Origin: Mycobacterium gallinarum
GTDB lineage: Bacteria; Actinomycetota; Actinomycetes; Mycobacteriales; Mycobacteriaceae
Direction: 5' to 3'
DNA: 64,000 nt
NCBI RefSeq assembly: GCF_010726765.1
Contig: NZ_AP022602.1
Span: forward strand, 1-64,000
A model generated the notes under the pieces. The model saw only the letters and a program-made list of their open reading frames with translations, did no database searches and had not been told where the DNA came from. Shown here piece after piece: positions 50,870 to 64,000 of the stretch. The position numbers were made by a program, and so were the translations under genes. Positions within the stretch are counted from its first letter, which is position 1. Every line of letters starts with the position of its first letter.

Positions 50870-51244
50870 ATGGAGGCACCAGAGCAGGGCATTGAGCGGT
50901 TGGACCACTTCGTCACCGAGCGGAGACGAGCATTGGGTATCAGCCGCGCACAGATGTTCGCCCGCGGCGGCCCATCGCCATCGACCATGAACAAAGCCCT
51001 CACCGGGGACCGGGGACTGTCTCGATCCACCCTGGAGCGCATCGACCGCGCACTGGGATGGGCGCCGGGCTCGGCCGAGACCGTGATGCGCGGCGGCACT
51101 CCCACCTCACGCATACCGGCGCCGAGCGATGCGCCCTGCCCCGCGCACGAGCACGTAGTCACAGTCCTGGAAAGCATCCGGACGCAGCTGCACACCGCTG
51201 AGCAGCTCGTCGAGGATCTGCTCGGGTCCGGCCATGCCCGCTGA
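50870..51244 (+). CDS. XRE-like HTH regulator
   Basis: The 124-residue protein has an N-terminal helix-turn-helix of the phage-repressor type (GIERLDHFVTERRRALGISR, AQMFARGGPSPSTMNKALTG, LSRSTLERIDRALGW). A helical C-terminal segment (HVVTVLESIRTQLHTAEQLV) may dimerise it. It is divergent from the T4SS operon, so repression of transfer is plausible. It overlaps the downstream membrane gene by 11 bases. Confidence 0.65.
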   Translation: MEAPEQGIERLDHFVTERRRALGISRAQMFARGGPSPSTMNKALTGDRGLSRSTLERIDRALGWAPGSAETVMRGGTPTSRIPAPSDAPCPAHEHVVTVLESIRTQLHTAEQLVEDLLGSGHAR

Positions 51245-52016
51245 GGTGTTCGACGAAGAACGCCGGGCCTGGATCGCCGCCCGCGCCGGCATCTGGATGT
51301 TCCAGAAGCGCCGTGCCGAGCTACTGGGCAAACGCATCCGCGCGCGTAGCCGCGCCAAGGTGGGTGCCCGACCCGACCCCCACGATGATCAAGTGACTCC
51401 ACCGCTGATCTTCCGCACGTCCTCCACCACGACTGGGGCGCTCGAAACCGGTGTCGCCGCGGTCCTCGCCGCGGCCGCACCGATCGGCTGGCCACTAGGC
51501 CGAATGCTCTATGCCGTGATCATCGGGCTGATCCCCGAGCGCCTCCAGGCCTATCCGATCGCGGCGCTGATCTGGGCCGCCATCCTCAGCGGCGCCCCCT
51601 TACCCGTTCTTTATGACCCCAGTCCTTCGCTGGCCAGCACCCTGCTCATCCCATGGCTGCTCGCTCAAGTCCCGGCCACCTTCGCTTCCGCCGCGGCCTA
51701 CGGAGTCCTCGAAGGCTGGCTGGCGATCGACGGCTCCAGCGACTGGTGGCCATTGACCCCCGCCCAGCGCGATGTCGACGACACTCTGATCCTGGGTCCT
51801 GCTCCCGTGTCGATGCCGACCCTGCTCGATCCCGCCCCATCTGCTGACGGCCGATCGCCGGACGCTCTCCGCGTTCCGCGTCGCCGACCTGCACCAGTGA
51901 ACTGGATACGGCTGGCCATCCCCGCGGCCATTGCGGCGATCGGAAGCTGCTGGTACGTCGCGGCCGTAGCTGCAGCCCTCGCTGCGTTTCCCGGCCAGGC
52001 GCTGGCCGCGACTTAG
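51234..52016 (+). CDS. Hypothetical membrane protein
   Basis: The 260-residue product starts MPAEVFDEERRAWIAARAGI with a basic cytoplasmic segment (RRAELLGKRIRARSRAKVGA). About four membrane helices follow (for example LETGVAAVLAAAAPIGWPLG and IAALIWAAILSGAPLPVLYD), then a last one at the C-terminus. No family was recognised. Its overlap with the HTH gene suggests one transcript. It ends 71 bp before the convergent end of the helicase gene and could belong to either the transfer region or the defence-like cargo. Confidence 0.5.
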   Translation: MPAEVFDEERRAWIAARAGIWMFQKRRAELLGKRIRARSRAKVGARPDPHDDQVTPPLIFRTSSTTTGALETGVAAVLAAAAPIGWPLGRMLYAVIIGLIPERLQAYPIAALIWAAILSGAPLPVLYDPSPSLASTLLIPWLLAQVPATFASAAAYGVLEGWLAIDGSSDWWPLTPAQRDVDDTLILGPAPVSMPTLLDPAPSADGRSPDALRVPRRRPAPVNWIRLAIPAAIAAIGSCWYVAAVAAALAAFPGQALAAT

Positions 52017-52087
52017 GCCCAGTGGCCCGCGCACGCACATCAAGGTGATCGCGACGAGTGGCGACCATCAAGTCACGTAAAGCTCAA

Positions 52088-55000
52088 TTAGGACCCGATC
52101 AGAGAACCTGCATCGTCTGAGCCCACGTCCACCACAACCTGCGATGAGGACTCTGGTTGATCGGTCGGCGGCACCAACGCCATCCAGCAGACCAGATGCA
52201 CATCTTCATCACGAATCTCAGGTAGCGGATCCGGTGGCGGCGGAGGCTCTAAACCGAGTTCGTCGACGAGTTCAATTATTCGGGTGGCCCTCTGCTGCGG
52301 GTGCTCAATTGACATGGCGAGCCGGAACAACCGCAGAATTCGGTCCGCGTACGGTGCCTCGAGCGCCTCCACGGCACGATCGAGATCCTCGATCTGCACC
52401 GTGGAGGCGTGATCCTGCACCGTCTGCGACGCCCGCCGCATCACCGGGGGCACGACCGGAGCGATATTCGCGGGATCGGCCAGAAAATTCCATCGCTCCA
52501 CAACATGATCTCGGGCGACGGCCCACGCCTCGAACGCCCCCTCATACATCTGCGGCGACAGGTCGCGCGGGGTGTCCCACTCATCGCGCGGCCGCACCCG
52601 GTCCAAGCACGCCAACGTGTCCTCGACGACCTCAGCTGGGGAGTCCCCGAAAGCTGGCCGGACGTACCGAAACTGAGGTGTGGGGTGATCAGCGACCCGC
52701 ACACAAAAGATGTAACCAGGCAGCCCGGCCGGCACCGCCATGCCCGAACCGGAACCCCACGGCAGCGCTGCGATCGTCTCAGCTAAGTCGGTGTTGTCCA
52801 ACGCCTTTCGCAATTCCTGCCGATACTCCTCACCGGACAGGGCGCTGGCCCCCACGCCACCAAACTCGAAGATGCTGGCATCCCCGGCGCGCAACCGCTC
52901 AATCTCATCGCGTGTTTCAGCGAACGTCAGATCCGATGTCGCCGACCCGGGCAGGATCTCCCCTACGCCCACCGCGGCCGCTGCTTGCTGAATCTTGCGG
53001 TGCAGACGCTCCTCAAGTCTCAACAGATCGTCGAGGCGACGGTCCGGAAACACGCACCGCATGAACACCTCGGTGTGCCGTGATCCGATGCGGTCGATGC
53101 GCCCGTGCCGCTGCACCAGGCGCATCGGATTCCACGGCAGGTCGTAGTTGATGATGTGCCGGGCCTGCTGAAGATTCACGCCCTCAGCCAGGACATCGGT
53201 CGTTACGAGGATGTCGTACCGATTCTCATCGGTGGGTGCATCGGTGGTCGCCGGCGCGAACCCCCACAACTGATCCCGCTTATCGGTATCGCTGCCGTGC
53301 AGCGACGCGATCCGGTCCTGGTACACCGCCAACCGTTCATCGGTCTGAGCTACCTCACGGAGCCGCCGCTCAATCCAATCAACCGTGTCGGCAAAGTAGC
53401 TGAAAATTAACACCTTCCGCTTGTCGCGGGTGTCATCCTCCCCGACTCCCTCAGATGCGGCCTGCGCGGCGATTAACGCGAGCTCATCGATGACCGCGTT
53501 CAGGTTCGGGTCAGCCCCACTGGTTACCGTGGCTGCCTCCGTGGCAAGGCTCCTTAACAGCGCCCGATCGTGCTCTACATGCGCACGCAGCGACGCCACG
53601 TCATAGTCGCCGGCATTCTCCAGATCCTCGGCGTGTACCCGCATGAACTCTTCAACGAGATCGCTATCATCGGAATCGGTTGCCGCCCACTCCCGTAACG
53701 CCACGCCGGCCGCCACTTTCCCGGCCGCCAGCAGCTCCAAAAAGCTGTCGTGGCTGGCCGCCATCTTCTCGCAGGTCCGGGCGAACGCGTACGGCGACGA
53801 CTCGAATCGTTTCAGCAGACCCGACCGCAGCAGCCCGGCCAACTGGGCCTCTCGGGCCGCGATCCCACCCGGCCCGTATCGCGATGGCGCATACCGCGCC
53901 AACGTCAAGACTTCCGGATGAAGCTCCGGATTCGGCGGGTGAGCATCGTCGACATCTAGTGCGGCGGCGAACCGGTCGAAGAATCCCGGCAGTACCGCAT
54001 CAAGATCGTAGGTGACCTTGTGCACTCGTGGAGTCGGGAATGTAATCGGTACCTCGGTACCCCCGATGCGGACCGTATCGGCTGGATAGAACCGCTTTAC
54101 GAACGGACGGGTCCGCCGCACTGCGACAGCGTCGAGAATGTCGAACAGATACTCAGGCGACAGATCGTCAGGGTTGAGCGCCATCGCCCGCCCGAAATGA
54201 TCACGCAGAGAGGGGATCCCCAAATCAGCGAACACCGCATCGTTGCGCAGGAAGTACAACAGCAAGTAGTAAAGGTCCCAAAGGCTGTTGTTCACCGGTG
54301 TCGCCGTCAACAACACCAGATCCTTCCGGTAGCGCCCAGCTAACAGCCGGCGGATGGCCTCCGCCCTCCGTGTCGCCGGGTTGCGCGCGTTGTGAGCTTC
54401 GTCGACAACGATCAGCGCGTAGTCGTCGGGATCCTGATCCAGAATGAAGCCGGATGCCTCCGGGTTGAGGCGCTGATCGCCCACCAGGTCATCGAACGAC
54501 CGCAACTCGATCGGCAGATTGAAGTCCGAGGCGAAACGGCGCCACGGCCCGTCCCGCAGGGTCGCCGGCGCCACCACCAGCACCCGCTGACGTCTCGCGA
54601 TCGCCGCATCTTCAATGAGTTTGCCTGCCAGGAATGTCTTGCCCAGGCCGACCTCGTCGGCGATCAGCACACCCCGACGCTCAGTGAGAATGCGTCGCGC
54701 CCGCCATAAGCCGTCACGCTGAAATGTCGTCAAATGGATGGTTCCACCGGCGCTGTCATCCGCTTCGGCGCTGATCTCGCCGCCGTAGCGCTCCCACAGC
54801 ATCCTTAGATAGATCAGCTGCGGCGGGTGCGCCTCAAATCTCGCGTCGTAGAGGGCTGCCAGGTCGAAAGGCTCAGCCACATCCCATAATTCGTCGAACC
54901 ACTGACGAACCTCGGTGACCGTCTGCGGGTGATACTGACCGAGATTGAGCTCGATGTTGCGCGCCAAGCCCGCATAGGTGAAGTTCGACGATCCGGCGAC

Positions 55001-55483
55001 GACACCCTCGTCGTGATCTGTGATGGTCAGATACGTCTTACCGTGCAGGAACCGGTCAGTGAGCCGACGCACCTCGACATGATCGTGGCGCAACCACTCC
55101 ACTAGCTGCCGTGCGTGCTTGTCTGAATCCCGGCTGAAACCAAGCAAATCTCTGGCCTGCGCAAGATCGCGGCCCTGCCCTTCTAGGGCGCGCCGCAATT
55201 CCGCTGCGCGGGCCCGCGCCGGCGCAGCGGGCTGGTTGAGCCTCCGCGGCGCCGGCGCCGGATCGGGCTCGGCCCCCAGCAGTAGCCGTACCCGATGCGG
55301 GTGGTCCAGCTCCTCGGCCAGCAGCTGGTAGCCGCCTACGTTGAAGTACGCCGAGGCGATCAACAGCTCGTATGGATCTTTGAGCGTGCGGCGCAGATGC
55401 GCCAAATGCGCGTTGATCGCCCCGGCGACCGTTTCACCGTCGCGGTTGACCAGAAACGTCGGCTTCGGCGTCGGCTGAGTCAT
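52088..55483 (-). CDS. PLD-SNF2-type helicase fusion protein
   Basis: The 1131-residue protein begins with a phospholipase-D-like domain (LLIASAYFNVGGYQLLAEEL, then HGKTYLTITDHDEG near residue 147 and VVAGSSNFTYAGL). One H-x-K motif is visible, so an active nuclease would need a dimer. An SF2/SNF2 helicase follows: Walker A GVLIADEVGLGKTFLAGKLI near 277, VVDEAHNARNPATRR near 361, LLTATPVNN, and C-terminal LVTTDVLAEGVNLQQA and LVQRHGRIDRIGSRH near 790. The architecture resembles DISARM helicase DrmD with the PLD function of DrmC joined to it. The ATG overlaps the methyltransferase stop by ATGA. Confidence 0.85.
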   Translation of the reverse strand: MTQPTPKPTFLVNRDGETVAGAINAHLAHLRRTLKDPYELLIASAYFNVGGYQLLAEELDHPHRVRLLLGAEPDPAPAPRRLNQPAAPARARAAELRRALEGQGRDLAQARDLLGFSRDSDKHARQLVEWLRHDHVEVRRLTDRFLHGKTYLTITDHDEGVVAGSSNFTYAGLARNIELNLGQYHPQTVTEVRQWFDELWDVAEPFDLAALYDARFEAHPPQLIYLRMLWERYGGEISAEADDSAGGTIHLTTFQRDGLWRARRILTERRGVLIADEVGLGKTFLAGKLIEDAAIARRQRVLVVAPATLRDGPWRRFASDFNLPIELRSFDDLVGDQRLNPEASGFILDQDPDDYALIVVDEAHNARNPATRRAEAIRRLLAGRYRKDLVLLTATPVNNSLWDLYYLLLYFLRNDAVFADLGIPSLRDHFGRAMALNPDDLSPEYLFDILDAVAVRRTRPFVKRFYPADTVRIGGTEVPITFPTPRVHKVTYDLDAVLPGFFDRFAAALDVDDAHPPNPELHPEVLTLARYAPSRYGPGGIAAREAQLAGLLRSGLLKRFESSPYAFARTCEKMAASHDSFLELLAAGKVAAGVALREWAATDSDDSDLVEEFMRVHAEDLENAGDYDVASLRAHVEHDRALLRSLATEAATVTSGADPNLNAVIDELALIAAQAASEGVGEDDTRDKRKVLIFSYFADTVDWIERRLREVAQTDERLAVYQDRIASLHGSDTDKRDQLWGFAPATTDAPTDENRYDILVTTDVLAEGVNLQQARHIINYDLPWNPMRLVQRHGRIDRIGSRHTEVFMRCVFPDRRLDDLLRLEERLHRKIQQAAAAVGVGEILPGSATSDLTFAETRDEIERLRAGDASIFEFGGVGASALSGEEYRQELRKALDNTDLAETIAALPWGSGSGMAVPAGLPGYIFCVRVADHPTPQFRYVRPAFGDSPAEVVEDTLACLDRVRPRDEWDTPRDLSPQMYEGAFEAWAVARDHVVERWNFLADPANIAPVVPPVMRRASQTVQDHASTVQIEDLDRAVEALEAPYADRILRLFRLAMSIEHPQQRATRIIELVDELGLEPPPPPDPLPEIRDEDVHLVCWMALVPPTDQPESSSQVVVDVGSDDAGSLIGS

Positions 55484-58400
55484 CGGGTCGCCTCCAGGAT
55501 CGCGGTGCGCAGCGGCGCCGGGCAGGCCGCGGCACCATCGGAGAAGTCGCTGAGAAGGGTGCGCATCTGATCGGTCTGGAGGCCGAACCCGGCGGCAGCT
55601 AGCGCCTCCAACTCGACCCGGGCCGCCACCGGGTCGCCCTCGGTGGTCGGCAGGACCCGATCAGCTGCCAAGGTGTCTTGGCCTTGCTCCCGCAACAATG
55701 CCGCCGCCAGCTCGGCTGCCCGCTCAATCTGCTCAGCAGACCAGTCGGGTAGTCGGACATTGTTGACGACCGGGGCGGTGACATGTCGATCGACGAATCG
55801 ACGAACCCACCAATCGCAGGTGAACGTGTTGAGGAACCCCAACAGCGCCAGCAGCTCGGCCGTGCCTGTGCCGCCAGCGTGCTTCACCGCGTGCACGTAG
55901 CCCTTGTTGTGCACAAACCCCGCCCGAGGTAGCGCCGTGGCGATCATCGTGCGCGAGTCATCGTTGCGCGACGGGTGCCGCATGATCACCACAGGGTGCG
56001 ACTCATCAAACCCGGCAACACCATCAACAGCGGTGACGCCGTTGGGTAATGCTGCGGGATCGGAGATGAACCGCTGGAATGCGATCGTGTCGTCGATGCC
56101 GTAGGCCACGACGTGCCGCGTCATCAGAATCCGCCAGGCCCCGTCGCTGTCGGTGTCGCTGCTGAATCGACGCTGCGGGCCCGACGACCGGAAGTCGTAG
56201 CGGGCATCATGGCTTCCGCTCACCCAGCCCTTATCCGACGACAGACTGTGGTGCGCCTGCATCGTCTCGAACACCGGACGATCGGCCGCCGAGTTGAGCC
56301 ACGGAACCACCATCGTGTCGCTGAGCTCGTTGAGATCCTTCGCGTTTAGGGTGAGCCCACCGCCGCTCCCTGCAGACCGCAATGCGGCCTGAGTAGCCAG
56401 TCCTGGCCAGATCAGCACCGTGGCGGACTCGCCGGTGCGATGCCTTCCTATGAAAGCGACCGCCGTGCTGTTGTGCACATCGTCGAACAGCCAACCAGCC
56501 TTATTACGGGCCTGCGCGACCGTCGTCGCGGAATCCGTCAGCAGCGCTTCACGAATCCGGCTCCACCCACCCAGCAGAAGACTGTTGGCCGGCAACACGT
56601 ATCCCAGCGCCGCACTGCGGTGCAGCAACGTCAGCGCCCGCTCGGTGAACAGCTTCGCGAAGTCATAGTGACCGCGGCCCCGCAGTGGGTACGACCGCTC
56701 CACATACCCCTGGAAGCGTTCCCGCTCAGCCTTCTCGCGCGCCTCCACCACCGCGTCCGCCGGCCGTTCAACACGCAACTGCTCGATCCGGTTGGCCCGC
56801 TGTGACTGTGGCAACGCGTTCAGACCGGGCATCCGCGTCACCCAAAACTGTTGCGGCTCGAACAGAACCTTGTCCCACGGCGGATTTCCCAGCAGGCAGT
56901 CGAAGCCCGGCCGCTCCCGCAGGAAGACCTCGGGGAACACCACCGGGAAGTGCAGCGCCGCCACCTCCTCGGCCGCTGCCCGCGCCCCAGCCGCCTCGGC
57001 AGCAGCGCGGATCGACTCTTCGTCGACCGACACCGGCGGGGCTGTGTCCTCCAGCCGCGCCGCGATCAGCACATCGAACAGCAGAGCGGCCGGCTCGACG
57101 GCGGCCAGAGCGTTGTGGTGGGCCTGCTGAGCGGCGTGCACGTCGGCAACGGTCGCATCGTCGATGGTGGCCAGCCGCGCCAGGGCCGCCGCGCCGCGCT
57201 CCAGGAACTCGGTGATCTCGTCCCGGTAGAGTGTGGGCGCGTCGTCGTCGTCGCCGGCAAGCACTCGCAGGGCGTCGTCGATCGACGCGATGCCGATGAG
57301 GCTGTTGCCGGTGACGAGGTTGTGATCCAGAAATGACAACGGCAGACCGGGTACGAACGTGTGGATCCAGATCGCCAGCCTGGCCAGCTCGACGGCGATG
57401 ACGTTGCGGTCTACCCCGTAGATGCAGCGCCGCCCCACTTGACGGCGTAGCAGCGCGGTCATCTCGATTTCCACCCCGTCCGCGAGTTCACCGAGAGCGT
57501 TGAGGGCGGCGGTGCGCAGCGCATCTAGATCAGCGGTCACCGTGGGAATGGGATGCAACGCCAGGAACGCTGAGAGCCGCGCTTCGATGCGGTCGACCGC
57601 CGCGACCAGGAAATGCCCGGAGCCCATCGCGATGTCGGCACATCGAAAGTCGAAGAACGCTTTCGCTGCCGCGGCGTCATCGCCGGCGTCGACCAGCGTC
57701 TGAATCCGGTCCAGATGTTGCGTCAGCGCGGGCTCCAACGCCTGATCGAGCAGGTGCTCCACCCCGAACGGCTTTGTGAAATAGCTGCCGGTGGCTTTAC
57801 GCTCGCCCGATTTGTTGTGGAGGTAGACCGCTCCGGCCGCCACCTCCACTACACCCCGCTCGCCGGCTGGGACGAAGTTGCCGTCGCCATCGACGCTCAG
57901 GTCTGTGGGCGCCAGCGACAGCTCCGATTCCAGCAGACCCTCGTACAAGGTGCCGAACTCCCGCACCGACAAACTGCGGAAGTCGACTGGCCCCAGAAGA
58001 TCGTCGCCGTCATCGGGGACATCAATCAGCAGCGCCGCCAGCGCGGGTCCAAAGTGAGCATTGCTCAAGCGGATATCCTGCAGCGCCGCGCCCGCGGGAT
58101 TCGTGGCCGGATCGGTTGAGAACAGCCCGCCGTTGTACGCCGGAACCCCCCAGCCCGGGTTGCCCAGCCGCACCGCATCCCAGAGCTGGACGACGTCCTC
58201 CCATAAGTCGAAGTTGTCGTCATCAAAGCTGAGCGCGTCACGATTGGCGTCCTCAGCTAGCCGCCGCGCAATCCGCTTGAGACTGTGGTCGGCGTAGCGA
58301 CTGTTACTACGGTAGGGCAGCAGATCCTTGTCCTCGCCGTACGCCACAAACAGCAGGCGGAACAACACATTTAGCGTCTGGTCGTACGCCGCCACGAGCT

Positions 58401-59457
58401 GCTCCCGAGACGGCGTATCCGTCAACGACGCTGCAACGCCCTCAGCAAGCGCCGGCACCGCTTTGCGATACACGCGATCACGCAGTCGGGTCGCCAGATC
58501 CGACGCGAAATCCGCTGAGCTGTCCAAGATCTGATCAAAAGATCCGCCGACAGTGAGGGCATCCGCCGAGAACAACAACTGCAAGAACCCGGCCCGATCC
58601 TCAGGCACCAATGCAAGATTGGCCTCGATGAAAGTCTGAGATGGCCCTCGCCGGCCAACCCCGACATCGGGCTTTACCGCATACAGTCGAATCTCTGGAC
58701 CCCGTGTCAGCACTACCCAAGGCAATTGCTCACGGCTCGCCAACGCCAGCGCATGCGACACCGGTGAGACACCCTCGAACCGCATCCCGGGCGCCTCGAA
58801 TGATTCGCCCTCGTCGAGGAACACCGCCACCGCCCGCCGATCCCGCCCAGCAGATAACAGCGATGTATTCGTGCCCAGGTGAGTGACCGTGAATCCCAAT
58901 GCCTTCACCAGATCATGACCACGCTTGCGCAACGCCGCCCGACTCGCGGCCGTCGCCGCCTCCCAATCCGCGCGCAGCGGCACCCCGTAGCGCAACTCAT
59001 GCGACGCCAGTAGTCCCGAATTGACTATGCCCGGTAGCTCCGAGTCCAGCTCCGGAAGCAGCCGCAGCAGGCAACGCTGAGCGGCGTGGCGCGTCGGCTC
59101 CGCTAGCGCCGCCGTCGATAACCGCTCGATGCGCGAGATATCCAGGTCGAAGTACACCGGCGGGTTTTCCCCCGCCGGCCCACAGACAGCCACAGCGATG
59201 CCGCCGGCATCGGGGTAGCCCACCACCAGCAGGACCGGAGATGGCCGGCCACCGTGTCGCACAGTCCACGCGCGCCGCATGTCAGCAGTCGTCGGCCGCT
59301 TCGCCGCTTCACCCACAGCGACCTCAAGCCCATAGTCGGCGTCCTGGAGAAACACCTGCCCCGCATTGATCGCCGCCGGCAAACCTTCCGCAGCCATCCA
59401 GCGCCGCGGCTCACGATCAGCCAGAAAGGTGTCAAACCAGGCCATGAGCCACCCCAT
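55480..59457 (-). CDS. Large adenine-N6 DNA methyltransferase, Eco57I/DrmMI/PglX-like
   Basis: The 1325-residue protein carries methyltransferase motif I ADIAMGSGHFLVAAVDRIEA near residue 609 and catalytic motif IV CLLGNPPWDKVLFE (NPPW) near 857. The Eco57I-type insert and the FTKPFGVEHLLDQALEP lead-in precede motif I, and a target-recognition-like region follows. The N-terminal 350 residues (YPDAGGIAVAVCG, LPWVVLTRGPEIRLYAV) look like a restriction-enzyme N-domain but lack a clear PD-D/ExK triad. It would methylate adenine in host DNA. Coupling to the PLD-helicase suggests a restriction or DISARM-like pair. An ATG at 59445 is an alternative start. Confidence 0.85.
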   Translation of the reverse strand: MGWLMAWFDTFLADREPRRWMAAEGLPAAINAGQVFLQDADYGLEVAVGEAAKRPTTADMRRAWTVRHGGRPSPVLLVVGYPDAGGIAVAVCGPAGENPPVYFDLDISRIERLSTAALAEPTRHAAQRCLLRLLPELDSELPGIVNSGLLASHELRYGVPLRADWEAATAASRAALRKRGHDLVKALGFTVTHLGTNTSLLSAGRDRRAVAVFLDEGESFEAPGMRFEGVSPVSHALALASREQLPWVVLTRGPEIRLYAVKPDVGVGRRGPSQTFIEANLALVPEDRAGFLQLLFSADALTVGGSFDQILDSSADFASDLATRLRDRVYRKAVPALAEGVAASLTDTPSREQLVAAYDQTLNVLFRLLFVAYGEDKDLLPYRSNSRYADHSLKRIARRLAEDANRDALSFDDDNFDLWEDVVQLWDAVRLGNPGWGVPAYNGGLFSTDPATNPAGAALQDIRLSNAHFGPALAALLIDVPDDGDDLLGPVDFRSLSVREFGTLYEGLLESELSLAPTDLSVDGDGNFVPAGERGVVEVAAGAVYLHNKSGERKATGSYFTKPFGVEHLLDQALEPALTQHLDRIQTLVDAGDDAAAAKAFFDFRCADIAMGSGHFLVAAVDRIEARLSAFLALHPIPTVTADLDALRTAALNALGELADGVEIEMTALLRRQVGRRCIYGVDRNVIAVELARLAIWIHTFVPGLPLSFLDHNLVTGNSLIGIASIDDALRVLAGDDDDAPTLYRDEITEFLERGAAALARLATIDDATVADVHAAQQAHHNALAAVEPAALLFDVLIAARLEDTAPPVSVDEESIRAAAEAAGARAAAEEVAALHFPVVFPEVFLRERPGFDCLLGNPPWDKVLFEPQQFWVTRMPGLNALPQSQRANRIEQLRVERPADAVVEAREKAERERFQGYVERSYPLRGRGHYDFAKLFTERALTLLHRSAALGYVLPANSLLLGGWSRIREALLTDSATTVAQARNKAGWLFDDVHNSTAVAFIGRHRTGESATVLIWPGLATQAALRSAGSGGGLTLNAKDLNELSDTMVVPWLNSAADRPVFETMQAHHSLSSDKGWVSGSHDARYDFRSSGPQRRFSSDTDSDGAWRILMTRHVVAYGIDDTIAFQRFISDPAALPNGVTAVDGVAGFDESHPVVIMRHPSRNDDSRTMIATALPRAGFVHNKGYVHAVKHAGGTGTAELLALLGFLNTFTCDWWVRRFVDRHVTAPVVNNVRLPDWSAEQIERAAELAAALLREQGQDTLAADRVLPTTEGDPVAARVELEALAAAGFGLQTDQMRTLLSDFSDGAAACPAPLRTAILEATR

Positions 59458-59857
59458 TCTGCCGAGCAGTACGCGCCACCACGCCCGCCGAAAGCCGCCT
59501 CGACATATCGCAACGTACTAGCAGGGCCGCCCGGCTACGCGACAACCACGCCGCCGCCGAACCCCCTTCGCCGAGCAACCACCGGCTACCCATACCGACC
59601 GCAGCCTCGCGGCTGGACGTTTCGGCGAGGCGGGCGTCAGCGCGGACCATCAGCCGCCTCTACGTGGCATTGTCGCCTATCTGTGGCACACCTCGCGGCG
59701 CCGGCACAAGACCGAACGTCAGTCGTCAGAGGTAGTCATCCTCGACCGCGTCCGCCATTCCATACGCGGTCCGACACGGGGTTCTGCCTTGAAACGGCGG
59801 CTCGCCAAAACCTCCTTGCAAATCCCTGACGGAACGGTAAACCCACATTCATCAGCA
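59458..59857. other. Spacer between the methyltransferase and eccE
   Basis: These 400 bases separate the start of the methyltransferase from the end of eccE, both on the minus strand. No frame has a start signal or recognisable protein, and no repeat stands out. The promoter of the defence-like pair must lie here. The gap probably marks the join between the eccE-ending operon and inserted cargo. Confidence 0.4.
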
Positions 59858-61405
59858 TCAATTCAGGAAGGTCTGTTCGTTGCGGAACGTCACCGCATCC
59901 AGGCGCGCAGTGAACCGTTCGGTTTCGATGCGGATTCGACCGTTGCGCTGGGTGATGCGCACATCGGGCTCGACGGAACGAGGTCCGGCGCCGACGCTGA
60001 TACTGACGAGCGCACCGGGATAGGGATTGCTGGACCCGTTGTGCACCACCACAGTCGGAGGCCTCGGCGGCTGCGCGCGAGGGTCGGTCGTGTTCCATAT
60101 CCGCGACGAGGCCGCGGCCATGGCCCAGCGGCGGCGCGGGTCATACACCGCGACAACTTCACCGCTGGCCGAAGCGCGACGAATGAGTTGGCGGACCGCG
60201 AGATCGTCGTCGGCATCGATGACGATGCGGGTCGGCCCGCCCGGGTCACGCAGCGGCATGAGCAACAGGGCGTCGTCCACCTTGCCCAGCATGACCCCCG
60301 ATGAGCCGATGGCCACGGCGGCGTCGAGATCGGCGGTCAGCGTTCGTGCCGGCATGCCGCTGATCCGTTCAGCACCGGGTAGCAGCGCTGACAGCGCCCA
60401 CCACTGGCGACCGGTGTAGCGGTTGAGGATGACCGCCGGCGGTGTGAGCAGCGGCTGCGCCGTGGTGAACCGCACCGTTGCCGACACGGTGATCCCCTCG
60501 CTCGAGCGCCGCAGGTGCAGCGCCAGCAGCGTGTGCTCTGAGGCGATCGCCCACATGTCGTCGAGGCGGTCCGCCGTGAGGTCCTCGGCGCTGAGGTAGT
60601 AGCTGGTGACGTGGGTTCCGCGGTGGGTGAGGTCTTTCCACCCTTCGCGGAAGGTGCTCTCGATGTCTTCCTTGCTGCCGCCGTGCATGTCAAGAACCGC
60701 CTGGCGCATATCGGCGGCCGTCATCGGTTCTGCGCGGCAACCACTTTGGCGCAGAGCCCGCGTGATGCGACGAGTGACCGCCGCGACCGCGGCCGCGGCG
60801 TCGCTACGCCACATCAGTCCGGCAGTGGTGTCCGGTGAGCGGGTATCCATGCGGATCACCAGCATGGTGCTGCGCTGCCCGGCCGCGGGCCGGTCGGCCA
60901 AGAGCTGGGCATAGAACTGACCGTAGTTGTCGCTGGCCGTGCGGCGGCCCTGCGCGATCACATCGACGTCCACCCCGAGCCCAAAGCGCTGCATCTGCTC
61001 GGCAATCACGCTCAGCGGCAGCGTATTCGGGGTCTCAGCGCCTTGCGGTCGCAGCAGGGTCGGGATGTAGGGCCGACCCCATACGTTGACCATCGTCACA
61101 AGGGTGTGCTCGTCGAGGTGCACACCCAGCAGCTGACCATCGCTGTCGACGTCGACGAACTCGCCGGTCTCGACACGGTGTTCCTTATGGCGCAGCCGCC
61201 CGATGGACCGCGTGAGCCACCGCCAGGGGGTCAGCCGTGCGGCTTTCACCATGAACAGCAGCGCCCCCAGGGCCGCGCCGCCGGCTGCACCGGCCCACCA
61301 GGGCCCGCCGAAGGCAACAGCGATGGCCGTGCCGAGCAGGGCAAGGATTTCGGTGGGCAGTGCGGCGCGAAGATCGGCGCGCGCGCTCCAGATGCGTTCC
61401 TTCAT
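59858..61405 (-). CDS. eccE: Type VII secretion membrane component EccE
   Basis: The ATG at 61405 overlaps the mycP stop as ATGA. The 515-residue protein has two N-terminal membrane helices (ALPTEILALLGTAIAVAFGG and PWWAGAAGGAALGALLFMVK) and a long cytoplasmic domain typical of EccE (VDVDSDGQLLGVHLDEHTLV, LSVIAEQMQRFGLGVDVDVI). EccE sits at the edge of the ESX membrane complex with EccB, EccC and EccD. The order eccD-mycP-eccE matches ESX loci and plasmid ESX-P clusters. Confidence 0.88.
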   Translation of the reverse strand: MKERIWSARADLRAALPTEILALLGTAIAVAFGGPWWAGAAGGAALGALLFMVKAARLTPWRWLTRSIGRLRHKEHRVETGEFVDVDSDGQLLGVHLDEHTLVTMVNVWGRPYIPTLLRPQGAETPNTLPLSVIAEQMQRFGLGVDVDVIAQGRRTASDNYGQFYAQLLADRPAAGQRSTMLVIRMDTRSPDTTAGLMWRSDAAAAVAAVTRRITRALRQSGCRAEPMTAADMRQAVLDMHGGSKEDIESTFREGWKDLTHRGTHVTSYYLSAEDLTADRLDDMWAIASEHTLLALHLRRSSEGITVSATVRFTTAQPLLTPPAVILNRYTGRQWWALSALLPGAERISGMPARTLTADLDAAVAIGSSGVMLGKVDDALLLMPLRDPGGPTRIVIDADDDLAVRQLIRRASASGEVVAVYDPRRRWAMAAASSRIWNTTDPRAQPPRPPTVVVHNGSSNPYPGALVSISVGAGPRSVEPDVRITQRNGRIRIETERFTARLDAVTFRNEQTFLN

Positions 61406-63063
61406 CGCTGATGCTTCCTTCGCCAGACAGTTGTCCCCCACAGCACCGCGCCGACCAGTACCACGCCAGCCCCGATCTGGGCGGCCAGCATGCGCGCGGG
61501 GCGTGGATCCGGGGGTGGTGGGGGCGGCGGTACGTGCAAGGGCGCTTCGGTGGGTGTCGGCGCCTTGGCAGGTGCCGGGGGGACGTCCCACGTCAACGCT
61601 GCCAGCGGGTCGACCACGCCGTGGCCGACTACGTTGTCGCGCCCCCCGGCAGGGGCGTGCGCGGTGGCGGTCAACCGGTGGATGACCTCGGCCGCGGGAA
61701 GCTGCGGGAACTTCGCCCGCACCAGAGCTGCTACGCCAGAGACGTAGGCCGCTGAGAACGAGGAACCGATGATGGGTTTGAATTTGTCCTCGTCGATCGA
61801 GGCATTGATGACGTTGCCCGAAGTCGACAGTCCCACGATGTCAGCCCCCGGCGCCGCGAGATCCACCCACGGCCCGTGCAGCGACGCGGCTTGGCTCATC
61901 AGCGGTGCGCCGGAGTTGTCGGTGGCCGACACCGCCAGCACGTACTCGTCGAACCAGGCCGGTGAGGCGATGGTCACCACGTCGTCCCAGCCGGACGCCC
62001 CGGTCGCCGGTGGCGGATTCTGGGTGCATCCCTGTGTTCCCGCGTTACCTGCTGCGGCGACAATCACCACGTCTCGATCAACGGCTGCATAGCGAAGGGC
62101 CGCGCCCAAGACTGCTTGGTCGGTCGGCTTGGTCACCGGTATGCAGGACACCAGCGAGATGTTGATGACCCGCGCGCCCAGGTTGGCGGCATGCACGATC
62201 GCGCGCGCCAGCGTGTTGATGTCGCCGGTCCTGCGGGTCTGCTCCTGGTCCTGATCCAGACGCGGGTCTTTCAAACCGAAGTTCTGCGAGCTTTGGCGGA
62301 TCGCCAGAATCACGGCATCCGGAGCGATGCCGATCAGACCATCAGGTCCACCGGTAGGCGGCGGCACCTGCGGACGGGGAAGCTGCGGCGCCTGCGCGAC
62401 CGAGCCGCCGGGACCCCACGCCGGTGGCGGCCCGGGCGGCCCCGGCGGCGGAGGCGGGGGTTCTACTGGCGGCGGCGGAGGCGGCGGCTCGGTGGTGGTC
62501 TTGGTGATGGTGACAGTCGGCGGCGGTGGTGGCGGCGGAATCGGTTGCGGCGCAGGCGCTGCCGGAGGCGGCGGTGCAACCTGCGCACCAGCCGGACGAA
62601 CCGGCAGCGGACCGCCCGAGGGCGCCGCGCCGATCAGCGACGCGACCAGAGTGCCATGTGCATCGCAGTCAGACAGCCCGTCGCCATACTGACCCATCAC
62701 GTAGTCACCGCCTGCCACGAGATGGGGCAGGCGCGGGGACGGCGCAACTCCGGTGTCAATGACCGCGACGACGACTCCAGCGCCGGTCGACTCCTGCCAC
62801 GCCGCCGGCATATCCAGCAGCGCCAACGCTGGGGGCAGCTCGCGCAGATCGCTACCCGGAAGGACGCCGGTCAGCGTGCAGGCGCGTGTCTGCTTCATCG
62901 GCCAGTCCGGGGCCGGCGCCGGGTCGGGCGGGGGCGGCCCCGGCGGCACCACCGGCGGTGTGATCGCCCAGCTCGCTCCCATGCTGGTGGCGGCGAGCAG
63001 CGCAATCGTGCCCGCCAGTCCGGCCCCGGCACGCACGCGGGCGCCAAAAGGCTTGCGGCTCAT
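61402..63063 (-). CDS. mycP: Mycosin, membrane-anchored subtilisin-like protease
   Basis: The ATG at 63063 overlaps the eccD stop. The 553-residue protein has a signal peptide (AGAGLAGTIALLAATSMGAS), catalytic Asp in VVAVIDTGV (about 101), His in DCDAHGTLVASLIG (about 135) and Ser in IIGSSFSAAYVSGVAALVR (about 436). A C-terminal helix (MLAAQIGAGVVLVGAVLWGT) with a basic anchor ends it. An unusually long Pro-rich insert (TTTEPPPPPPPVEPPPPPPG and similar) separates His from the next beta strand. Mycosins are required for ESX complex stability and process some substrates on the outer face. Confidence 0.93.
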   Translation of the reverse strand: MSRKPFGARVRAGAGLAGTIALLAATSMGASWAITPPVVPPGPPPPDPAPAPDWPMKQTRACTLTGVLPGSDLRELPPALALLDMPAAWQESTGAGVVVAVIDTGVAPSPRLPHLVAGGDYVMGQYGDGLSDCDAHGTLVASLIGAAPSGGPLPVRPAGAQVAPPPPAAPAPQPIPPPPPPPTVTITKTTTEPPPPPPPVEPPPPPPGPPGPPPAWGPGGSVAQAPQLPRPQVPPPTGGPDGLIGIAPDAVILAIRQSSQNFGLKDPRLDQDQEQTRRTGDINTLARAIVHAANLGARVINISLVSCIPVTKPTDQAVLGAALRYAAVDRDVVIVAAAGNAGTQGCTQNPPPATGASGWDDVVTIASPAWFDEYVLAVSATDNSGAPLMSQAASLHGPWVDLAAPGADIVGLSTSGNVINASIDEDKFKPIIGSSFSAAYVSGVAALVRAKFPQLPAAEVIHRLTATAHAPAGGRDNVVGHGVVDPLAALTWDVPPAPAKAPTPTEAPLHVPPPPPPPDPRPARMLAAQIGAGVVLVGAVLWGTTVWRRKHQR

Positions 63064-64000
63064 ATCCCGTGCCTGACCGCGTTGCGGATCACCGGGTACA
63101 GGTTGAGCAGCCACAGCGCCCAGGGCAGCAGTGCCAGCAGCAGCACGTACTCGATCATCTCCACGAACCGTCGCATCGGAGCGGTGTATTCACGGAAGGG
63201 CACAACGAGTGCAGACAGCAATCCCATTACCGCGAGGACGAGGGTGACCGCGACACAGATCAACGCCACCTTGAGGCTGGTGGCATCGCTGGCGGCGTAA
63301 CGGCCGATGGCAACCGCTGCTGCACCCACGCCAGCGACCATCAGCGTGACGGACTGGTAGCGGTCCACGAACGAGCGCGAGCGAAGCACCAGAATCACGC
63401 AGACCGCCCCGACAAAGGCGGTGTAGCGCCATCCACCGGGCTGGCCGGGCACCACCGCGTAGCGCGCAGCCACAACGGTCACCACCGCGAGGCCGATCAT
63501 CATCCCGGTCAAGGTGTTGTTGCCGCGCATCACCCATGCACGGACTTGTTCGGCGGTGGCCACCCCGGTCGGGCCGACCGGGGACACAGTGTCGGCGGGC
63601 TGGCCGGGCAGCCGCTCGAACACCCCGCGGTTGGTCACCGAGGGAAACAGCGGGGTCGGCACGCCTGAGGCAGCGACGGCTGTGCTCGTGGCCCAGGTGA
63701 CGGCAACGATCACCGCGATCAGCGCGATGACGGCGACGCGTTCTGGGCGGACCTCCCAGGTGGAGGCCGCGACGACGGAGGCCGCGAAGGCGAACACGCT
63801 CACGGTCAGGATCGCGGCGACGGCCACGACGTGGCGCCCCCATATCGTTGCGAGCACGATGACACCGGCGATGACCGCGACAAGCGGCGCAGCGAGGTGC
63901 CAGAGACCTGGAGTGCCGGGCAGCGACATGGCCGCCGCGGCGGCCGCGGGAACGAGAGCGACCCAGGACAACGCGTGCCCTGCTGCGCGGCGCTCACGGC
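63060..64000 (-). CDS. eccD: Type VII secretion membrane channel component EccD (partial)
   Basis: The frame is open to the right edge of the window, so the N-terminus, including the expected ubiquitin-like domain, lies outside. The visible 313 residues hold about eight membrane helices (for example LAAPLVAVIAGVIVLATIWG and LICVAVTLVLAVMGLLSALV). They end PMRRFVEMIEYVLLLALLPW then ALWLLNLYPVIRNAV, the conserved EccD C-terminus. EccD forms the two barrel-like rafts of the ESX membrane pore. It is coupled to mycP by ATGA. Confidence 0.88.
   Translation of the reverse strand, partial: RERRAAGHALSWVALVPAAAAAAMSLPGTPGLWHLAAPLVAVIAGVIVLATIWGRHVVAVAAILTVSVFAFAASVVAASTWEVRPERVAVIALIAVIVAVTWATSTAVAASGVPTPLFPSVTNRGVFERLPGQPADTVSPVGPTGVATAEQVRAWVMRGNNTLTGMMIGLAVVTVVAARYAVVPGQPGGWRYTAFVGAVCVILVLRSRSFVDRYQSVTLMVAGVGAAAVAIGRYAASDATSLKVALICVAVTLVLAVMGLLSALVVPFREYTAPMRRFVEMIEYVLLLALLPWALWLLNLYPVIRNAVRHGI

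Follow-up and report, generated by a model that had tools for sequence, protein, structure and literature searches.

BREX-related type 2 systems, in the part of their description available to us, combine a DUF499 ATPase core with an HKD–Swi2/Snf2 helicase and an N6-methyltransferase, with DUF3780 present in 98% of taxa (PMC12839542). ARMADA, as far as the accessible text describes it, comprises a BrxHII-like helicase, a PglX-like methyltransferase and a YprA-like helicase that typically has a fused nuclease domain (PMC12458937), and SauUSI, NgoAVII and CglI are presented, again in an available portion of the source, as precedents for restriction by a PLD domain with a superfamily 2 (SF2) ATPase (PMC7913695). 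Here we compare with these systems a pair of genes in the first 64 kb (the window; positions 1 to 64,000 of NZ_AP022602.1) of a 211,674-base plasmid contig of Mycobacterium gallinarum, whose 6.30-Mb genome is assembled in two contigs. We propose that the pair is probably a minimal ATP-dependent restriction–modification (R-M) system, consisting of a fused modification–specificity protein and an ATP-driven PLD motor–nuclease.

Both genes are read from the minus strand. The first (55480..59457; 1325 aa) is predicted from its open reading frame, a PF07669 match and the top Foldseek rows, BrxX/PglX, to encode an Eco57I/PglX-like N6-adenine methyltransferase with a fused specificity region; the second, downstream (52088..55483; 1131 aa), was assigned from its open reading frame, Pfam and a structure model as a PLD–SNF2 gene. 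The open-reading-frame listing has them share an ATGA stop/start overlap at 55480..55483, confirming the overlapping pair noticed in an earlier sequence-only reading of this DNA, and the Pfam domains agree with its view that a candidate nuclease, a helicase and a methyltransferase are packed into two genes.

The methyltransferase core (residues 541–870; 56848..57837, minus strand), delimited by Pfam, secondary structure, conservation and motif positions, contains AMGSGHF at residues 610–616 and NPPW at 858–861, so that both the S-adenosylmethionine motif and the NPP(W/Y/F) motif of N6-adenine DNA methyltransferases are present. NPPW is identical in all 40 aligned methyltransferases and GSG in 39 of them, the window protein included; this and the Eco57I (PF07669) match uphold the Eco57I/PglX-style enzyme with NPPW that had been read from the sequence. 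By sequence the protein had no match in the PDB at an E value of 0.001. BrxX/PglX led the Foldseek list for its model, with DrdV and BpuSI also among its matches; a further list of fold matches, which includes the type ISP enzymes LlaGI and LlaBIII, spans residues 318–1200 and has no bearing on the N-terminal fold. That N-terminal part includes a domain ahead of the core (residues ~150–300; 58558..59010, minus strand), recognized from secondary structure and showing no conserved lysine, whose order of helices and strands recalls, to our eye, the PD-(D/E)XK fold.

The best PADLOC profile for the methyltransferase is REase_MTase_IIG (670 bits), which, together with the DrdV and BpuSI fold matches, would suit a type IIG enzyme that both modifies and cuts DNA and has an accessory helicase. 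We regard this as improbable because Pfam finds no nuclease family in the polypeptide and, across 40 aligned sequences, no lysine is conserved at 90% within residues 20–299.

In the partner protein, Pfam places PLDc_2 (residues 39–200), SNF2-rel_dom and Helicase_C in a single polypeptide, again as the sequence-only reading, which described a PLD domain fused to an SNF2-type helicase, had it. The PLD (HKD) nuclease-like domain (54884..55369, minus strand; from Pfam, conservation and motif positions) carries HxK at residues 147–149 and GSSN at 164–167, and the SNF2-type SF2 motor (residues ~250–800; 53084..54736, minus strand; from Pfam, fold matches and conservation) carries a Walker A motif at 279–283 and DEAH at 361–364. 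A C-terminal region without a Pfam match (residues 850–1131; 52091..52936, minus strand) was defined on the structure model. The 37 aligned helicases, that of the window among them, all share H147, K149, G164, S165, N167, E178, G279, K282, D361 and E362; position 283 has T in 35 sequences and S in the other 2, and position 364 has H in 34 and Q in the other 3. With NPPW invariant in the methyltransferases and the main helicase residues in the helicases, the loss of conserved methyltransferase and helicase motifs across homologues that would have counted against the sequence-only reading is not seen, and the main catalytic motifs of the window pair are, to judge from these alignments, intact.

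By fold comparison the motor resembles RapA and ZorD; a second list of fold matches, in which ZorD recurs, spans residues 235–887 and has no bearing on the PLD fold. This resemblance, like the place of BrxX/PglX at the head of the methyltransferase list, could fit a BREX-like block, in which the methyltransferase would mark self DNA and the PLD–SNF2 protein would halt replication or eject DNA without cutting it. Such a block would leave the complete identity of H147, K149, S165, N167 and E178 in 37 of 37 sequences hard to explain without nuclease activity, and we consider it unlikely.

The C-terminal third of the methyltransferase has a history of its own. Against the locus L011, the identity of the window protein is 64–71% as far as residue 870 and falls to 34, 17, 23 and 30% beyond it, the helicases of the two loci being 65–88% identical by region. 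Compared with the haloarchaeal locus L004, it is 37–46% identical up to residue 870 and then 57, 42, 41 and 41%. Because these two profiles are opposite across residue 870, the sequences establish that the region after NPPW (residues 871–1325; 55483..56847, minus strand), the predicted specificity region or target recognition domain (TRD), has been swapped en bloc among members from archaea and actinobacteria, as would be expected of the specificity domains of restriction systems. The methyltransferases of L004 and L006, both haloarchaeal, are likewise 59–71% identical up to residue 870 and 18–33% after it.

In the restriction mechanism that we favour, the C-terminal TRD of the methyltransferase would read a short target sequence, where the enzyme would methylate an adenine and thereby mark self DNA. 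At an unmarked site it would recruit or license the PLD–SNF2 protein, whose SNF2 motor would travel along DNA and whose PLD domains, two acting jointly to form a nuclease site, would cut it. That adenine is the base modified, that the two proteins form a complex, that the motor translocates and the nuclease cuts, and that the system protects against phages or competing plasmids are inferences.

The pairing itself is conserved. A tblastn search of 72,556 plasmids found at least 80% of the helicase at one place in 8 records and at least 80% of the methyltransferase in 3, with both genes adjacent in five plasmid records, and a protein search scoring 7995 candidates gave 2544 clusters of methyltransferase relatives at E ≤ 1e-30. 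A scan of GTDB genomes yielded 261 relatives, from which we kept the best 80 methyltransferase loci of other genomes. A PLD–SNF2 gene, in some cases cut by a contig end, lies downstream on the same strand in 65 of the 80, and 14 of the remaining 15 loci end within 561 bases of the methyltransferase, L070 being the exception. When open reading frames neighbouring the pair were compared all against all, listing groups present in at least 4 fetched loci, the three largest covered 10, 7 and 6 loci, and a conserved third gene was rejected. Few genomes of the window's genus have the methyltransferase (6 of 248 at E ≤ 1e-50, the window's own included), and across the phylum the helicase was matched, often distantly, in 26 of 296 genomes at E ≤ 1e-40, again counting its own. 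The methyltransferase had no match in 50,697 phage records, and carriage of the module by phages was rejected on this result.

Several observations weigh against this interpretation as an R-M pair. The textbook HKD motif is HxKx4D/E, and its acidic residue is not conserved: at this position the window protein has I, and D or E occurs in 16 of the 37 aligned sequences; the type IIG label of the methyltransferase would put the nuclease in that protein itself; L070 has no PLD–SNF2 gene over 3,061 bases downstream; the PLD–SNF2 gene of L084 begins 5,944 nt away; and the gap between the matched domains exceeds 300 nt in 19 of the 65 loci.

Variants of the pair were seen in several places. In another genome of the genus (L138, 1–13908) it is broken up into several open frames that alternate with unrelated ones, an arrangement that insertions may have produced. 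L182–L184 and L186 hold divergent pairs, with methyltransferases of 1351–1493 aa and PLD–SNF2 proteins of 1026–1131 aa, indicating a wider family around the pair. Halorubrum plasmid pHLAC01 (L007, 11899–15195) has a second, shorter methyltransferase copy, without a helicase, adjoining an ISH3-like element. In Euzebya (L003, 19373–20221) a third gene overlapping the pair is annotated as a phosphorothioated DNA-binding restriction endonuclease, an annotation absent, by gene names, next to the pair in the other four plasmids.

The locus had been likened to the methyltransferase–helicase core of class 1 DISARM, and like that system it has a large PglX-like methyltransferase beside an SNF2 helicase. 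Kinship beyond these superfamilies is not supported. The window helicase scored 187.6 bits against DrmD, for which the NCBIfam cut-off is 610 and the proteins above it, found in 27 of 298 genomes of the order, score 1158–1408 bits; the window methyltransferase scored 217 bits against the best DrmMI profile, compared with 1272 and 1457 for two real DrmMI proteins. In the helicase tree, 12 sampled pairs, 4 divergent pair-like proteins and 4 proteins of the C3a139 type (named after a PADLOC profile considered below) fall on one side with support of 100/100, and DrmD, ARMADA-I-like proteins and a further group on the other; this tree contains no verified BREX-related type 2 helicase. A quick methyltransferase tree, with SH-aLRT support only and a long-branched row (L187_x) among the pairs, sets the pairs apart from DrmMI and ARMADA-I-like proteins at an SH-aLRT of 95. 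The phase-variable group described below is represented by L041 in the helicase tree and by L042 in the methyltransferase tree.

Neither drmA nor drmB was found on the plasmid by searches with PF09369 and one DrmA profile, in keeping with the earlier remark that the other DISARM genes are missing. PF09369, which we take to be borne by DrmB, has a single match in the genome, in an 879-aa frame on the other contig, C1, and none on the plasmid contig; the best hits of the DrmA profile were the window helicase itself, the remainder being weak (E 5.6e-7 to 2.6e-6). A reduced class 1 DISARM, made of DrmMI, DrmD and a DrmC-like PLD fused to the helicase, could draw on the shared superfamilies and on the sub-threshold DrmD and DrmMI matches. 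Because the scores are far below those of true members, the two trees place the pair on branches separate from DISARM and no drmA or drmB was found on the plasmid, we reject DISARM membership and regard such a reduced system as highly improbable. The suggestion of a minimal DISARM relative is accordingly not supported; the other option in the sequence-only reading, a separate restriction system, fits the evidence.

DISARM-like genes were also encountered in their own right. In another genome of the genus (L137, 1–13851) the pair stands directly beside a separate DrmMI and an N-terminally shorter DrmD. L126–L133 hold sub-threshold DrmD-like helicases in open frames of ~1150–1400 aa, followed in several of these loci by frames of ~920–980 aa and ~1130 aa.

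The best PADLOC profile for the window helicase is C3a139, 'HKD+Snf2' (173 bits), which matched in five of 296 genomes at E ≤ 1e-80 with 372–394 bits. As in BREX-related type 2 systems, to the extent that the available part of their description covers them, an HKD nuclease domain is N-terminal on an SNF2 helicase, the partner is an N6-methyltransferase and the proposed restriction logic is the same. Unlike those systems, with their DUF499 core, the window's genome has no DUF499 match anywhere (0 of 1 genome), a positive control in Thermotoga maritima having been matched, and so we rejected membership even though the HKD–SNF2 protein is present; DUF3780 was matched in 0 of 198 genomes, with no positive control matched either. 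L179, L180, L181 and L188 were also considered as BREX-related type 2 loci and rejected. At L181 (2125–11219) a C3a139-type HKD–SNF2 helicase sits with DUF4391, N6_N4_Mtase and a type III-like Res.

With ARMADA, as outlined in the accessible text, the pair shares a BrxHII-like helicase and a PglX-like methyltransferase. It differs in that the plasmid contig has no match to PF09369, a domain that YprA proteins presumably bear, and in that the PLD domain is on the SNF2 protein; lacking the YprA-like helicase, it was not assigned to ARMADA. Among relatives, where a YprA-like gene was judged by gene names only, a gene annotated as 'putative Helicase' lies close to the pair on the opposite strand in L005. 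Like NgoAVII, CglI and SauUSI, the pair combines predicted PLD nuclease and SF2 ATPase domains. By the portion of the account at hand, nuclease and ATPase are two subunits and the TRD is of the B3 type in NgoAVII and CglI, and SauUSI is a single chain that requires a methylated target (PMC7913695), in both respects unlike the pair. Type I and type ISP R-M systems likewise have a methyltransferase, a TRD and a translocating nuclease acting together. Instead of the separate HsdM, HsdS and PD-(D/E)XK HsdR of type I systems, the pair has modification and TRD in one protein, fused M–S with a separate R, and a PLD on the motor in place of PD-(D/E)XK. We found no earlier description of the two-gene pair in the literature searched, coverage of which was incomplete.

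In many relatives the methyltransferase gene carries, ahead of its specificity segments, simple repeats with a unit length not divisible by three. Such frame-shifting repeats occur in the methyltransferase gene of 30 of the 80 loci, within L028–L088, with units that include G or C runs, CT/GA, several 4- and 5-mers, and 8- and 10-mers, at profile positions ~966–988, 1066–1080 and 1285. Over the 80 loci, frame-shifting repeats outnumber frame-keeping ones 62 to 4 in the methyltransferase, compared with 3 to 5 in the helicase and 27 to 35 elsewhere (methyltransferase versus elsewhere, Fisher p 2e-10, a guide only, as the loci are related); the 62 include three (CG)5 runs away from junctions (L011, L053 and L075), which were dropped from the 30-locus figure.

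At the first site, 16 of 17 tract loci were examined (the contig of L043 ends 27 codons past the tract), and all 16 encode a pair of homologous segments that lie in different frames at a spacing of exactly 92 nt. When each segment is read in its own frame, variation peaks at the third codon position (0.37 and 0.39, versus 0.12–0.16 for positions 1 and 2), and protein identity is higher in that frame (0.79 and 0.73) than in the others (0.50–0.57). At the second site, a hand-made pattern applied to 26 of 27 tract loci (L029 ends inside the tract) found three tandem copies in three frames in 10 loci, spaced 68 or 74 and then 65 nt apart and best conserved in their own frames (0.90, 0.75 and 0.75, versus 0.51–0.59 out of frame); in L051 the third copy holds a stop. 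Two copies were found in L034 (with a stop in the first) and L071, one clear copy in L039 and L055, one doubtful match in L028 and L031, and none in 10 loci. In other loci a single frame continues for a long stretch. The C-terminal half of the methyltransferase matches in a frame of its own in 20 fetched loci, and in five of these, L030, L041, L048, L058 and L070, two or three of those frames follow one another.

Near-identical methyltransferases end in different frames. Five of 14 protein pairs that are at least 98% identical end differently after the tract (L070/P0122, L071/P0227, L030/L034, P0121/P0122 and L048/P0190, each aligned over at least 991 residues); the remaining nine include five that are 100% identical, some probably one sequence twice, and three from tract-free loci. 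By pattern, 120 listed relatives of L070 divide into 33 with segment A, 22 with segment B, 22 with a third frame and 43 with none. This variation supports slippage in nature. Homopolymer miscounts in sequencing or assembly could account for some of the G-tract frames. Such miscounts fail to account for the 4-, 5-, 8- and 10-nt units and for segments conserved in two or three frames. Specificity looks phase-variable in a substantial share of the relatives sampled; the loci are related and mostly metagenome-assembled, so that locus counts are not independent events.

Since tandem homologous segments, each in another frame, follow the slippery repeat, each slippage step would do more than turn the gene on or off: it would bring in another version of a segment that recognizes DNA, or else yield a truncated protein. 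On balance, and somewhat more cautiously than for the restriction pair itself, we favour the view that these loci represent an unnamed R-M type whose specificity protein, in many Acidimicrobiia-type genomes, would be a slippage-driven reading-frame selector. The nearest parallel is NgoAV, in which, according to the available part of the source, a G tract in hsdS changes methylation specificity between full-length and truncated forms; inverting hsdS loci are described there too (PMC7394358). The relatives share with NgoAV a repeat tract in the specificity gene and differ from it, as far as that text goes, in that the tract is followed by two or three homologous segments, each in another frame. 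No earlier description of tandem segments in alternative frames was found in openly searchable literature, which is weak negative evidence, subscription journals being mostly uncovered.

The window copy of the specificity gene appears fixed. By the rule used for the relatives it has no frame-shifting tract; its only repeat is a 14-nt run of a CGA unit, its longest single-base run is 6, and Tandem Repeats Finder reported nine short arrays in 52000–59600, some of them of period 8 or 11 with 2 to 3.5 copies.

The window also contains a TrwC relaxase, a TraG/VirD4-like protein and a type VII secretion set, in which EccE and mycosin exceed their NCBIfam cut-offs and an EccA-like ATPase falls below its own (419.8 of 466.65 bits). 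From these genes the contig is likely to be a conjugative-type plasmid, resembling, we assume, the type VII-secretion conjugative plasmids of mycobacteria; the conjugative plasmid of the sequence-only reading therefore stands as a likely assignment from gene content. The pair occupies a site (52017–59857) between a backbone HTH-type gene with a 260-aa gene (50870..52016, plus strand; HTH_31 at 26.7 bits, cut-off 27) and the backbone EccE and mycosin genes (59858..63114, minus strand; NCBIfam matches). Four Mycolicibacterium plasmids share 59–65% of a 24-kb query at 81–84% identity, and all four have an HTH gene and a ~260-aa gene annotated at the same place. At the site itself, two carry one hypothetical gene, another a RelE/ParE-type toxin with an HTH gene, and a further one a longer set with a CHAT-domain protein, with no annotated eccE or mycP in the stretch. 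Because related plasmids hold other genes there, the pair looks like exchangeable cargo at a variable site of a type VII-secretion plasmid.

If this interpretation is correct, a two-gene defence module spans several bacterial phyla and the haloarchaea, its members so far dispersed among annotations that include 'hypothetical protein', 'type IIG' and 'helicase-related', and the pair is small enough for direct tests of how a PLD nuclease, an SNF2 motor and a PglX-like methyltransferase work together when no further BREX or DISARM components are present. Should it be confirmed, the frame selector would lie further from known systems than the window pair does and would provide a new route to protein variants, in which the frames after one repeat choose between alternative segments.

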